A DNA stretch of 64,000 nucleotides from Thermococcus sp. 21S9. GTDB lineage: Archaea > Methanobacteriota_B > Thermococci > Thermococcales > Thermococcaceae. This document shows, piece by piece, positions 44,988 through 48,527 of this stretch. The translations under genes were made by a program, and so were the position numbers. Below the pieces are notes generated by a model. It was given only the letters and a program-made list of their open reading frames with translations. It did no database searches and was not told where the DNA came from. The stretch covers positions 806,001-870,000 of the forward strand of contig NZ_SNUS01000001.1 in the NCBI RefSeq assembly GCF_012027635.1. The letters run 5' to 3'. Every line of letters starts with the position of its first letter. The stretch's first letter is position 1.

Positions 44988-45059
44988 TATCCACAAACCA
45001 TCAATTAGCTATAGCGGGTAAACTAAGGGCTATCCCCAACAGCCATCACGGTGATTCGT

Positions 45060-45812
45060 ATGACCAGAGAGGTGTGGCAAGTTCGCAGGGTCAAGACCGG
45101 GATTCCCGGTTTTGACGACCTCGTTGAGGGAGGATTCCCCGAGGGAACCACGGTCCTTGTAACCGGTCCCACCGGAAGCGGTAAGACAACGTTCGCGGTT
45201 CAGTTCGTTTACAAGGGTGTTGAGCTCTACGATGAACCCGGAGTAATAGTCACCCTCGAGGAGAGAGCGCAGGACCTCAGGAGGGAGATGAGGACCTTTG
45301 GATGGGACATAGAGCAGTACGAGCGTGAGGGCAAGATAGCCATTGTGGACGGCGTCAGTGCCGTCGTGGGGCTTCCCTCGGAGGAGCAGTACGTTCTTGA
45401 GGGAAACCTTAACGCCGAGGACTTCTTGAGGTACGTCTACCGCGTTGTTAAGGCAATCAACGCCAAGAGGCTTGTCATAGACTCGATTCCATCCATAGCC
45501 TTCCGCCTCAAGAAGGAAGAGGAAATCCGGGAGATGCTCCTCCAGCTCAACACGATACTCCTTGAGATGGGCGTCACGTCAATCCTCACGACCGAGGCCC
45601 CCGACCCGAGCAGGGGCAAAATCAGCAGGTACGGCGTCGAGGAGTACATCTCCAGGGGCGTCATTCTGCTCGACTTCATCGAGAGGGAGGTTGAACTCAA
45701 GCGCTATCTCTTAATCAGGAAGATGCGTGAGACCAGGCACTCGATGAAAAAGTACCCCTTCGAGATAACCGAAGAGGGCATAGTCGTTTACCCGAGCGGG
45801 GAAATCTACTGA
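45060..45812 (+). CDS. KaiC-like RecA-superfamily ATPase (second copy)
   Basis: This 250-residue single-domain ATPase has Walker A GPTGSGKT at residues 36-43 and Walker B KRLVIDSIPS near 140. The C-terminal stretch RKMRETRHSMKKYPFEITEEGIVVYP closely parallels that of the first copy at 1.8 kb ([25 protein letters not shown]), so the two are paralogues. Unlike the first copy, it is not followed by a coiled-coil regulator. Its own TATA and ATG behind CGGTGATTCGT support the start. Function unknown; ATP-driven signalling or repair roles have been suggested for the family. Confidence 0.85.
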   Translation: MTREVWQVRRVKTGIPGFDDLVEGGFPEGTTVLVTGPTGSGKTTFAVQFVYKGVELYDEPGVIVTLEERAQDLRREMRTFGWDIEQYEREGKIAIVDGVSAVVGLPSEEQYVLEGNLNAEDFLRYVYRVVKAINAKRLVIDSIPSIAFRLKKEEEIREMLLQLNTILLEMGVTSILTTEAPDPSRGKISRYGVEEYISRGVILLDFIEREVELKRYLLIRKMRETRHSMKKYPFEITEEGIVVYPSGEIY

Positions 45813-45853: not shown

Positions 45854-47017
45854 ATGGTTCAAAAACGATTATTGATAATTGTTTTGTTGTCATCACTCCT
45901 GTTCGTTTCCCTTGCGCTTAGCCGTTACTCCCCGGAAAAAGACTCCTTCACGGGCCTTTGCGTTTATTCTTCCGGCTCCCTCTCCGTCCTCTACAACGGC
46001 ACGGTCACGGTAGCACTCGGAAGGCCCCTCGAACTTGGAAAGGCCTACACCGTCGAGGGCAGGCTCAGGACAACCAACCGCGGTCTCTGGATGGACGTCT
46101 CCACGGTAGTCCCTGCAAACGTGACGTTTCCCTTAGAAATTATTGAAGGGGCCTACCGGTACTCCAACGGTCCGATTCTGCTCACTCCTTCGAGGGTCCG
46201 CCTCGCCTATCCAATCAACGCCTCCAAGGGAAGCCTCGTGAGGCTTGAGGGCCTGACCTACGGCTCGAAGTTCTATCCCCTCAATGTTGAAGAGCTCGGC
46301 TATTTGAAGGAACCCAAAAACGGCATGCCCTACCCCCTCGAGGGCGTTGTCATCTACGGCGGAAACCCCGCAACGGTCTGGAACGGGAGCGAGGAGTTCA
46401 GGGTTTACCTCCCCCACGACCTTTCCCTCAGACCGAGCCTTCGCGTCAGAGTCCTCGGCGTTGCGAGACTTTACTCGACGATTACCCTCTACGTCGGTTC
46501 CGTCAACGACGTTAAGGTCCTTGGGCCTGCAGAGAAAAAATCCATCAATCTGGCGGAAACTGGGGAGATAGCCACCGGTGAGTGTCTCGTTATCAAAAGT
46601 ACCTCCCGCTACCTGAAGCTCAACTGCACGGGCTTAAGGCTCTACGGCTTCAGCGCGAGAACCGGCGATACGGTTCGTTTCGAGGCCCTGAGAAGAAAAT
46701 CCAGCCTGTTCTGCCTGGACTGTTCCGTCACGAAACCCCGGGAAGAGTTGCCCAACGGCATCTGCTCCTTTGAAGATGGCTCCTTCGCGAGAATCTCTGG
46801 AAAAGTCACCTGGGTAAAGGTTTACAGGAACGGCTTTGGAATAGCCAACATCACCAACGGCACCTGTTCCGTTCTCCTTAAGCTCCCATCGAGGCTCGGT
46901 GTTTCCCTGATGGAAAACGAGAGCGTAACCGCCTACGGCTTCTTCACGACCTACAGGGGAAAGCCGGCGTTTGAAGTTCAATCGGGTGAGGACCTTTGCT
47001 CCGGGAAGCACTGTTAG
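45854..47017 (+). CDS. Exported OB-fold-like protein, unknown function
   Basis: This 387-residue protein has a signal peptide or anchor (residues 4-23). The mature part is beta-rich with repeated units resembling OB folds (for example ISGKVTWVKVYRNGFGIANI and VTAYGFFTTYRGKPAFEVQ). It contains several N-glycosylation sequons and at least seven cysteines, which is unusual for a Thermococcus protein and suggests disulfides or metal binding outside the cell. A TATA-like ttttttaaggc at about 45823 makes the ATG at 45854 leaderless. It overlaps the following TctA-like permease by 22 nt, so the two are coupled and may form one system. Confidence 0.65.
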   Translation: MVQKRLLIIVLLSSLLFVSLALSRYSPEKDSFTGLCVYSSGSLSVLYNGTVTVALGRPLELGKAYTVEGRLRTTNRGLWMDVSTVVPANVTFPLEIIEGAYRYSNGPILLTPSRVRLAYPINASKGSLVRLEGLTYGSKFYPLNVEELGYLKEPKNGMPYPLEGVVIYGGNPATVWNGSEEFRVYLPHDLSLRPSLRVRVLGVARLYSTITLYVGSVNDVKVLGPAEKKSINLAETGEIATGECLVIKSTSRYLKLNCTGLRLYGFSARTGDTVRFEALRRKSSLFCLDCSVTKPREELPNGICSFEDGSFARISGKVTWVKVYRNGFGIANITNGTCSVLLKLPSRLGVSLMENESVTAYGFFTTYRGKPAFEVQSGEDLCSGKHC

Positions 47018-48120
47018 GCCTCCTGCTCGGCACTTTCACGGGAATAACTCCCGGAATCCACGTGAACACTTTGGCTTCAATGCTCCGCGGTTTCGGCCTG
47101 AGCGCGGTAGCTCTCTTTGCGATGGGACTAACGCATACGTTCCTCGATGTAATCCCTTCAACCTTTCTCGGCGTTCCAGACGAAGGAACGGCCCTCGGCG
47201 TTTTGCCGGCTCACAGGCTCGTGCTCAGAGGTAAGGGCCTTGAAGTCGTCAGGATAGCGCTCATCGCGAGCTTTCTGGCGGTTCTCTTCTTCCTCCCCCT
47301 GGTTCCCCTCTACATCCGCCTCGCTCCCCGCTACAGGCCGGCCTTTGGAAAGCTCACCGTCCTGCTCCTAATCCTTCTCCTCGTCTTTACCGAGAGGGGC
47401 GTGAAAAAGATTTATGCGCTCTTCATAATTCTCCTCTCCGGGCTTCTTGGCCTTTTTATTCTCTCACTCCCGCTGAATGAGCCTTTCTATGCGCTCTTCA
47501 CAGGACTCTTCGGCGTTCCTGTCATAGTCTCCTCCCTCCTGGCTGGGACCAGGAGAGTAGAGCCCGGCAGTCCTGAGCTTGAGATTACTCCCAAAAGGCT
47601 CGCCCTGTTCTCTTTCATGGGGACGCTCTTCGGTATGCTGGCTTCCCTCCTCCCTGCCTTCACGGCATCGCAGGCGGCTCTGCTTGGCTCGTTTATCTCT
47701 CGGGACGAGCGCTCGTTCCTGGCAATCGTCTACTCCGTTAACACCGCCAACTTCCTCTTCGCCTTCATCAACTTCCTCACAACGGGAAGGGAAAGAAACG
47801 GAGTGGTGACGCTGATGGAGCCCTTGGGTGTCAAAGCCCTCCCGGCGTTCTTCATCGTTGCGCTCTTTGTGGGCCTTGCAGTTCTCATTTACGGCGAGCC
47901 CCTTGCTGAGCTTCTGGCGGGGGCCCTTTCGAGGCTCCCGTACCGGTTTATCAACCTCGCCGTTCTGGCGTTTCTGATTCTCCTGGCCTTCATCTTCGAC
48001 GGCCTTCCGGGCCTGCTCGCGCTGACGGCTTCATCGATTGTTGGCTATCTGGCCGTTATCCTCGGGGTGAAGAGGACCAACTGCATGGGCTCCCTGATGC
48101 TCCCGGTCCTGCTAAGATGA
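46996..48120 (+). CDS. TctA-like membrane permease, archaeal type
   Basis: This 374-residue protein has about ten or more helices. The N terminus reads GTFTGITPGIHVNTLASML with a second GTLFGMLASLLPAFTASQAALLGSF repeat, the two Gly/Pro-rich re-entrant motifs of the TctA family (tripartite tricarboxylate transporters). No TctB or TctC genes accompany it. The start is TTG at 46996, well supported by GGGTGAGG 4 nt upstream and by the lack of any earlier start outside the previous gene. The upstream secreted protein may replace the usual binding protein. Substrate unknown. Confidence 0.75.
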   Translation: MLREALLGLLLGTFTGITPGIHVNTLASMLRGFGLSAVALFAMGLTHTFLDVIPSTFLGVPDEGTALGVLPAHRLVLRGKGLEVVRIALIASFLAVLFFLPLVPLYIRLAPRYRPAFGKLTVLLLILLLVFTERGVKKIYALFIILLSGLLGLFILSLPLNEPFYALFTGLFGVPVIVSSLLAGTRRVEPGSPELEITPKRLALFSFMGTLFGMLASLLPAFTASQAALLGSFISRDERSFLAIVYSVNTANFLFAFINFLTTGRERNGVVTLMEPLGVKALPAFFIVALFVGLAVLIYGEPLAELLAGALSRLPYRFINLAVLAFLILLAFIFDGLPGLLALTASSIVGYLAVILGVKRTNCMGSLMLPVLLR

Positions 48121-48124
48121 AACG

Positions 48125-48433
48125 TCAGGCGGACTTCTCCTTCATAATCCTCTGGAACTCGGAGTAATCCGTCACGATTCTCTTGCCGTCGAGGGTCTCG
48201 AAGTACACCTTCTTGACCTTAATCTTCTTGACGTCGGTGTACTTCATCTCGGGCGGGTCGTAGGAGCCTGGCTCGACGACCTCGTCCTCAACGACGTAGG
48301 TCTTCAGCTCGGGCTGGCCGATGTATTTCCAAACCTCGTAGAAGACCTCGGGCTCGAGGTGGATTTCGCCGTCGAGCTCAATCCAGTCGGCGCCAATCTC
48401 TTCCAAGAACTCCTTTACAACGTCGAAGTGCAT
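48125..48433 (-). CDS. Small acidic protein, unknown function
   Basis: This 102-residue, acidic, soluble protein starts MHFDVVKEFLEEIGADWIEL and contains a Pro/Asp-rich centre (EPGSYDPPEMKYTDVKKI). It looks like a small archaeal domain of unknown function, and I cannot name the family. ATG 48433 follows GCGGTGGTTTCT. A TATA-like tatttaac at about 48467-48474 (minus) supports the start. It converges on the permease gene with a 4-nt gap and diverges from the methyltransferase gene. Confidence 0.65.
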   Translation of the reverse strand: MHFDVVKEFLEEIGADWIELDGEIHLEPEVFYEVWKYIGQPELKTYVVEDEVVEPGSYDPPEMKYTDVKKIKVKKVYFETLDGKRIVTDYSEFQRIMKEKSA

Positions 48434-48527
48434 AGAAACCACCGCTCTAATATAGGGCTCCGGGGGTTAAATACCTATCGCCGGGCAGGTTTTTAAACCC
48501 CCTTCTCTAACCCCTCCGGTGGTGAGA

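Follow-up and report, generated by a model that had tools for sequence, protein, structure and literature searches.

The 64,000-nucleotide stretch of Thermococcus sp. 21S9 DNA analysed here (contig NZ_SNUS01000001.1, positions 806,001 to 870,000; the window) contains two overlapping genes, one encoding an exported, membrane-anchored protein read as five consecutive OB folds (the OB protein) and the other encoding a TctA-like permease. Our comparative analysis showed that these genes form a genuine unit that is nearly universal in the Thermococcales, and the genetics of a similarly built pair in a methanogen suggest that the unit is probably the Thermococcales version of a gene pair required for natural transformation, and hence for DNA uptake. 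The initial annotation of the window, made from its letters, had described the two genes as a possible unusual transport system.

The genome sample consisted of 94 Thermococcales and 21 other genomes of the phylum (115 in total), together with 14 control genomes; genomes are designated below by G numbers and retrieved stretches by L numbers. Profile searches of the 94 Thermococcales found a match to the OB protein in 90 and a match to the TctA family (PF01970) in 91. By scripted best-place matching, the OB gene was assigned in 90 of the 94 genomes and the paired permease likewise in 90, and the two were adjacent and on the same strand in 89. Both genes were missing in three genomes (G010, G052 and G062, with completeness of 77, 73 and 94%, respectively), and the two other non-adjacent cases fell at contig ends, the OB gene of G061 being truncated by its contig, at base 3, and the permease fragment of G003 reaching to 2 bases or less from the end of its contig. 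Profile matches of the two genes overlapped in 83 of the 90 adjacent rows, to which G084 contributed two. Because the genes were adjacent on the same strand in so many genomes and overlapped in most of the rows, their pairing is not attributable to chance. The suggestion of the initial annotation that the two genes belong together was thus borne out, and the outcome that it had named as contrary, a permease that in most genomes stands by itself or beside unrelated genes, was the reverse of what was found in the Thermococcales. The six named relatives returned by a scan of contigs were all from Thermococcus.

Both reading frames were present as originally described, with 22 shared nucleotides (46996-47017) and a permease TTG start codon directly behind a Shine-Dalgarno-like GGGTGAGG inside the OB gene, four bases 5' of the TTG. 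Among 57 distinct relatives with assigned starts, the overlap was 19 or 22 nucleotides in 42, the permease start codon was ATG in 22, TTG in 20 and GTG in 15, and GGTGA, GGGGA or AGGGA was located no more than 18 bases 5' of that codon in 48 (GGTGA in 30). Translation of the permease gene may be coupled to that of the OB gene. Searches of the Thermococcus sp. 21S9 genome with each protein returned a single copy only, including one PF01970 match.

Some loci of the order were irregular. The OB gene of G002 (G002:C1:898452-899637) and the start of the permease gene of G018 (G018:C1:609898-611028) were each split across two frames, by a frameshift or a sequencing error. In the stretch L079 (G084:C3:30468-31783) a second copy of the OB gene precedes a permease match that is just about 23 residues long; the two may be what is left of a duplicated pair.

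Structure prediction for the exported protein, which the initial annotation had put forward as a check, yielded a confident AlphaFold2 model based on a 46-row family alignment (mean predicted local distance difference test score, pLDDT, 93.0; predicted TM-score, pTM, 0.76). The model consisted of a single helix, residues 2-24, followed by strands that we read as five consecutive OB folds, the fold boundaries being our own reading of these strands. The earlier label "OB-like" was therefore correct yet understated, although the Pfam scan detected only a sub-threshold match to PF01336 (E 0.12) and no match to DUF4131. The description of the protein as Cys-rich also held: eight of its nine Cys residues are kept in at least 93% of the 46 rows, the last being found in 87%. 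Conserved basic and aromatic columns include R296, R313, K322, K343, Y361, F364 and Y367. The protein contains eight N-glycosylation sequons, compared with 2.6 expected, a count as high being reached in 2 of 2000 shuffles, and the family mean is 6.8 compared with 1.8 expected; this excess suits a location outside the cell. A Foldseek search with the model ranked p204 HINab, a tandem OB protein bound to double-stranded DNA, first (E 5e-8, TM-score 0.24) and ribosomal protein bS1 next, with all whole-model TM-scores being low (0.14 to 0.25). In a second structural comparison, which aligned mainly fold 5, OB folds of archaeal RPA were the leading matches (Z 12.3, root-mean-square deviation (rmsd) 2.1, 85 aligned residues). 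The NCBIfam scan gave no match to the OB protein or the permease, and sequence-only searches of the PDB with the two proteins yielded no usable match (best E 0.062 and 0.25).

The assignment of the second gene product as a TctA-like permease was upheld by its match to PF01970 (E 5.1e-36, 124.6 bits, cut-off 28.9), the only Pfam family found in it. Its AlphaFold2 model (pLDDT 90.9, pTM 0.90) is that of a helical membrane protein, and residues invariant in the 42-row permease alignment include H22, N24, H47, T48, D51, H73, N249, T250, R267 and N268. A nine-row alignment showed that the PG-I/L-HVN-S/T motif, with a THTF(L/I)D-type stretch after it, is shared with the f2, f4 and f5 permeases outside the order. 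Foldseek returned no solved structure for the permease model at E <= 0.001, and the nearest fold in the structural comparison was that of the barley metal-chelate transporter YS1 (Z 12.1, 262 aligned residues, rmsd 5.6; next other protein 7.8), a match that may be taken as a hint on the fold only. One scan of viral contigs gave no confirmed relative of the permease, and a plasmid scan gave two weak cyanobacterial TctA-like matches only; in the one cyanobacterial plasmid neighbourhood inspected no OB-annotated partner was present, the upstream genes being labelled merely "hypothetical".

The association of the two genes recurred outside the Thermococcales. The permease or part of it was found in 10 of the 21 other genomes of the phylum, and in five of these ten (G109, G110, G112, G113 and G114) it was preceded, on the same strand, by the gene for an OB protein that has a hydrophobic segment at its N-terminus; this gene was adjacent to the permease in G109, overlapped it by 8 nucleotides in G113 and G114, and was separated from it by one intervening gene in G110 and G112. 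The contigs of G111, G108 and G095 ended before an upstream partner could show, and in G096 and G097 (f2) the upstream neighbours of the permease were unrelated, with no OB gene beside it. Comparison by hhalign linked the OB proteins of f4 to the OB family of the window (95.6%, E 1.2e-8), their own PF01336 matches being below the cut-off. For the OB proteins of f5 the hhalign comparison was not significant (2.6%), and their link is drawn from a PF01336 match of 62.8 bits together with the anchor and the gene order.

A transposon screen of Methanococcus maripaludis for natural-transformation genes (PMC10133366) provides a possible function for the unit. In that report the neighbouring genes MMJJ_13020 and MMJJ_13030 encode, respectively, an OB-fold protein with one transmembrane helix and a TctA-like protein with 11 transmembrane helices; transformation was lost completely when either gene was deleted in frame and was restored by complementation in trans, and the authors proposed MMJJ_13030 as a possible DNA transporter. 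Deletion of the TctA-like homologue of Methanoculleus thermophilus left no transformants, complementation being impossible in that organism, and Thermococcus kodakarensis and Pyrococcus furiosus were listed among the competent archaea having the TctA-like family (PMC10133366). BLASTp found no single clear homologue of MMJJ_13020 in M. thermophilus (PMC10133366), which could be explained by the divergence of OB proteins. Like the methanogen genes, the overlapping pair in the window places a single-helix OB-fold protein beside a TctA-like protein with many membrane helices, and from the deletion genetics together with the matching architecture and gene neighbourhood we read the pair, with somewhat better than even confidence, as the Thermococcales counterpart of MMJJ_13020 and MMJJ_13030. 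Apart from the TctA-like family being mentioned in PMC10133366, searches of the open-licence part of PubMed Central found nothing on this pair in Thermococcales, and a term search of PMC13385129 for TctA or OB-fold gave no match.

Under this reading, the OB array on the outer face of the cell would bind incoming DNA, probably in single-stranded form, and deliver it to the permease, which would pass it into the cell. Least certain among these steps is that the permease itself serves as the DNA channel, which we hold to be somewhat less likely than not.

ComEC is the bacterial DNA channel, and it carries an OB domain, DUF4131. The OB array and the permease together would do the work of the OB domain and the membrane domain of ComEC; the proposed division of labour, an extracellular OB fold and a membrane transporter, is the same, whereas in the Thermococcales it would be distributed over two proteins and would involve a different membrane domain. 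The membrane domain of ComEC (PF03772) was found over the cut-off in none of the 115 genomes of the phylum, with one sub-threshold fragment in G049, and in 10 of the 14 control genomes, all ten of them bacteria. Archaea have been described as possessing pili and no identifiable ComEC (PMC10133366).

A second permease, of 443 amino acids, is present in many Thermococcus genomes and aligned with the first over 369 columns (hhalign 99.3%). At all 28 second-permease loci checked (L101:3541-9242, L102:3894-9613, L107:4265-9107 and 25 more among L039-L066), an OB-array gene was located upstream on the same strand and a YdjM-type gene was present within the locus. The array gene was flush with the permease gene within 3 nucleotides at 24 of these loci; the remaining four aligned via internal repeats, so that their exact spacing is unassigned, and fragments from draft genomes fall outside the count. 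One of these paralogous arrays is an anchored protein of 989 amino acids with a strong PF01336 match (E 3e-29), and the similarity of the long array to the OB family of the window was middling (hhalign 62.2%, E 7.4e-5). The array of L107 reached 28.8 bits against DUF4131 (cut-off 31.6), and an OB domain was matched right at the cut-off in the YdjM-type protein. Since the paralogous system has an array of its own, a permease with an OB array is a recurring design. It is possible, though on balance doubtful, that two proposals hold jointly: that archaea made their own DNA importer, a two-part stand-in for ComEC retained in nearly all Thermococcales, by combining an outer-face OB array with a permease recruited from the TctA family of organic-acid transporters, and that the paralogous system, with its array of up to about 990 amino acids and its OB-bearing YdjM-type protein, is a second importer, which takes up another polymer or else nucleic acid used as food.

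Several observations weigh against DNA uptake as the function of the pair. Its kinship with MMJJ_13020 and MMJJ_13030, which belong to another archaeal order, is by description as given in the consulted part of the report, not by alignment. The secreted thermonuclease MMJJ_16440 is essential for transformation of M. maripaludis (PMC10133366), and an SNase domain was found in only 51 of the 115 genomes of the phylum and not in Thermococcus sp. 21S9. The family-mean net charges of the five OB folds range from 0.3 to 3.8 (3.8 for fold 4, 2.7 for fold 2, near zero for folds 1 and 3) and are thus only mildly positive at most. The OB folds of tRNA synthetases tie with those of RPA or closely trail them in the comparison with fold 5, and as the OB fold is promiscuous, a common fold does not prove a common function. 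The nearest fold of the permease is that of a metal-chelate transporter and not of a DNA channel. In three genomes of the Pyrococcus group (G004, G006 and G008; L070, L072 and L073), the OB frames are only 234-244 codons long, or about three folds, with an intact permease. Finally, arCOG04469 is listed among putative carboxylate transporters, and most of its archaeal members are stand-alone, in the account of Makarova et al. 2015 (PMC5898192) as far as it was consulted.

The carboxylate listing is also a point in favour of the rival explanation that we consider unlikely yet the foremost, namely that the pair is a small-solute importer whose OB array stands in for TctC, capturing an organic acid, a nucleoside or a nucleotide for the permease, the transformation defect of the methanogen mutants being indirect. 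Membership of the permease in PF01970 points the same way, as do sub-cut-off TctC-like matches in 31 further genomes and TctB-like matches in 14, that of Thermococcus sp. 21S9 included. The arrangement of the pair resembles that of the TctCBA cluster of G077 (L100) in having a permease of the same Pfam family with the gene for an extracytoplasmic partner upstream. However, TctB and TctC exceeded the cut-off in only 1 of the 94 Thermococcales, G077 (15 and 32 genomes, respectively, had matches at E <= 0.001 when sub-threshold matches were included), and in agreement with the initial annotation neither is found beside the pair: none exceeded the cut-off in the Thermococcus sp. 21S9 genome, whose one weak match to each lies far from it. 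The partner of the permease is instead the OB array, so that the earlier suggestion of an unrelated protein in the position of TctB and TctC was well founded. Moreover, the permease of the window is a protein of 374 amino acids with the motif PGIHVNT, and the PG-I/L-HVN pattern of its relatives differs from the PGLTATM of the 498-amino-acid TctA of G077. Although the permease resembles the TctA family of euryarchaea classed as arCOG04469/COG1784 (PMC5898192), the OB gene is a near-constant partner in the Thermococcales, whereas the consulted part of that account places tctB and tctC beside some members in Halobacteria and Thermococci. The complete loss of transformation on deletion of either gene in M. 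maripaludis (PMC10133366) also argues against this explanation. The initial annotation had proposed profiling the uptake of organic acids or nucleotides; the genetics of the look-alike methanogen pair, which favour DNA uptake, make the organic acids less likely, and the nucleotides come closer to DNA.

A lipid-carrier function, in which the permease would return dolichyl phosphate, the OB array would be an envelope factor, and transformation would be lost through poorly made surface structures, addresses a gap in the Thermococcales. The two known families of polyprenyl-phosphate transporters are DUF368 and DedA (PMC9876793); DUF368 (PF04018) was found in none of the 94 Thermococcales and DedA (PF09335) exceeded the cut-off in none, with one sub-threshold fragment in G060, compared with DedA in 13 of the 14 control genomes, and five of the ten f3 genomes, all of which are without the permease, have a sub-threshold DedA-like match. 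However, the permease, which matches only TctA in Pfam, showed no similarity to five DUF368 rows (hhalign probability 0.5), DedA and PF01970 coexist in three control archaea, in five f4 genomes DUF368 occurs together with a whole or fragmentary permease, and a DNA-binding-type partner would not be expected. As DUF368 similarity was lacking and the transformation genetics fit DNA uptake better, this explanation is demoted to a minor, quite improbable one. Scarcely more than a slight chance is left for an importer of metal chelates or oligopeptides that has an OPT/YSL-type fold and works with a receptor on the surface: YS1 is prominent in the structural comparison of the permease, but that match has no counterpart in Foldseek at the threshold used, its Z near 12 is inside the range in which the tool warns about helical proteins, and no tie to metals or peptides was found in this analysis. 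Overlapping genes are common in compact genomes, and the two genes might be unrelated and merely share a transcript. This least probable of the explanations is close to refuted by conservation, the genes having remained adjacent throughout most of the order although their outer neighbours vary, and the association recurring outside the order, where the OB proteins have diverged, as well as at the loci of the permease paralogue.

T. kodakarensis is naturally competent and a leading archaeal genetic system. If the pair is its DNA importer, the question of how archaea take up DNA would be directly testable in T. kodakarensis, the OB array would offer soluble material for structural studies and binding assays, the gene pair would mark which archaea are transformable, and a small-molecule permease fold would serve polymer import.

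Coordinates, in the window, of the gene pair, its parts and its frequent neighbours
Feature	Coordinates	Strand	Basis or remark
Exported membrane-anchored protein read as five OB folds, 387 amino acids	45854..47017	+	ATG open reading frame; AlphaFold2 model; 46-row family
N-terminal signal anchor, residues 2-24	45857..45925	+	Model helix; sole segment over hydrophobicity threshold
OB fold 1, about residues 29-93, contains C36	45938..46132	+	AlphaFold2 strands
OB fold 2, about residues 94-155	46133..46318	+	AlphaFold2 strands
OB fold 3, about residues 156-233	46319..46552	+	AlphaFold2 strands
OB fold 4, about residues 234-300; C244, C258, C287, C290; most positive on family average	46553..46753	+	AlphaFold2 and alignment
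OB fold 5, about residues 301-387; invariant C304, C338, K343, Y367	46754..47014	+	AlphaFold2 and alignment; RPA match
Shine-Dalgarno-like GGGTGAGG within OB gene	46984..46991	+	Similar letters in same place in most relatives
TctA-like permease, 374 amino acids, TTG start	46996..48120	+	PF01970; AlphaFold2 model
Motif PGIHVNT, permease residues 19-25, H22 and N24 invariant	47050..47070	+	Alignment
Motif THTFLD, permease residues 46-51, H47, T48, D51 invariant	47131..47148	+	Alignment
KaiC-like ATPase gene, upstream	45051..45812	+	Frequent neighbour, outside strict unit
DUF5748 gene, downstream	48125..48442	-	Opposite strand; frequent neighbour, outside strict unit

Weak matches to the OB profile elsewhere in the genomes were followed up by retrieving ten stretches and scanning four proteins against Pfam, two of them also against NCBIfam. 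The latter two (L162:1526-3832 and L163:3006-5462) look exported and have partial, sub-cut-off similarity to the extracellular nucleases ExeM/NucH, and the weak matches were rejected as copies of the OB gene. In G094 (f2) an anchored OB protein was present, yet no permease match. The true TctC-TctB-TctA cluster of G077 (L100:3590-6655) is located by sugar-kinase-like and aldolase-like genes, which were named by eye. The route by which Thermococcales return dolichyl phosphate across the membrane is unexplained by DUF368 or DedA.

In some genomes KaiC-like ATPases of the RecA superfamily were observed in the vicinity of either type of permease locus, upstream of the pair in the window and near the second permease at L102:2269-2994 and L107:1205-1921, a proximity that may reflect a link to DNA handling or chance. 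Among the stretches examined, the KaiC-like gene was missing upstream in L068, L069, L078, L080 and L093, and DUF5748 was missing downstream in the Pyrococcus-type stretches L070-L075, L098 and L099 as well as in L078 and L093; the pair was retained in each case.

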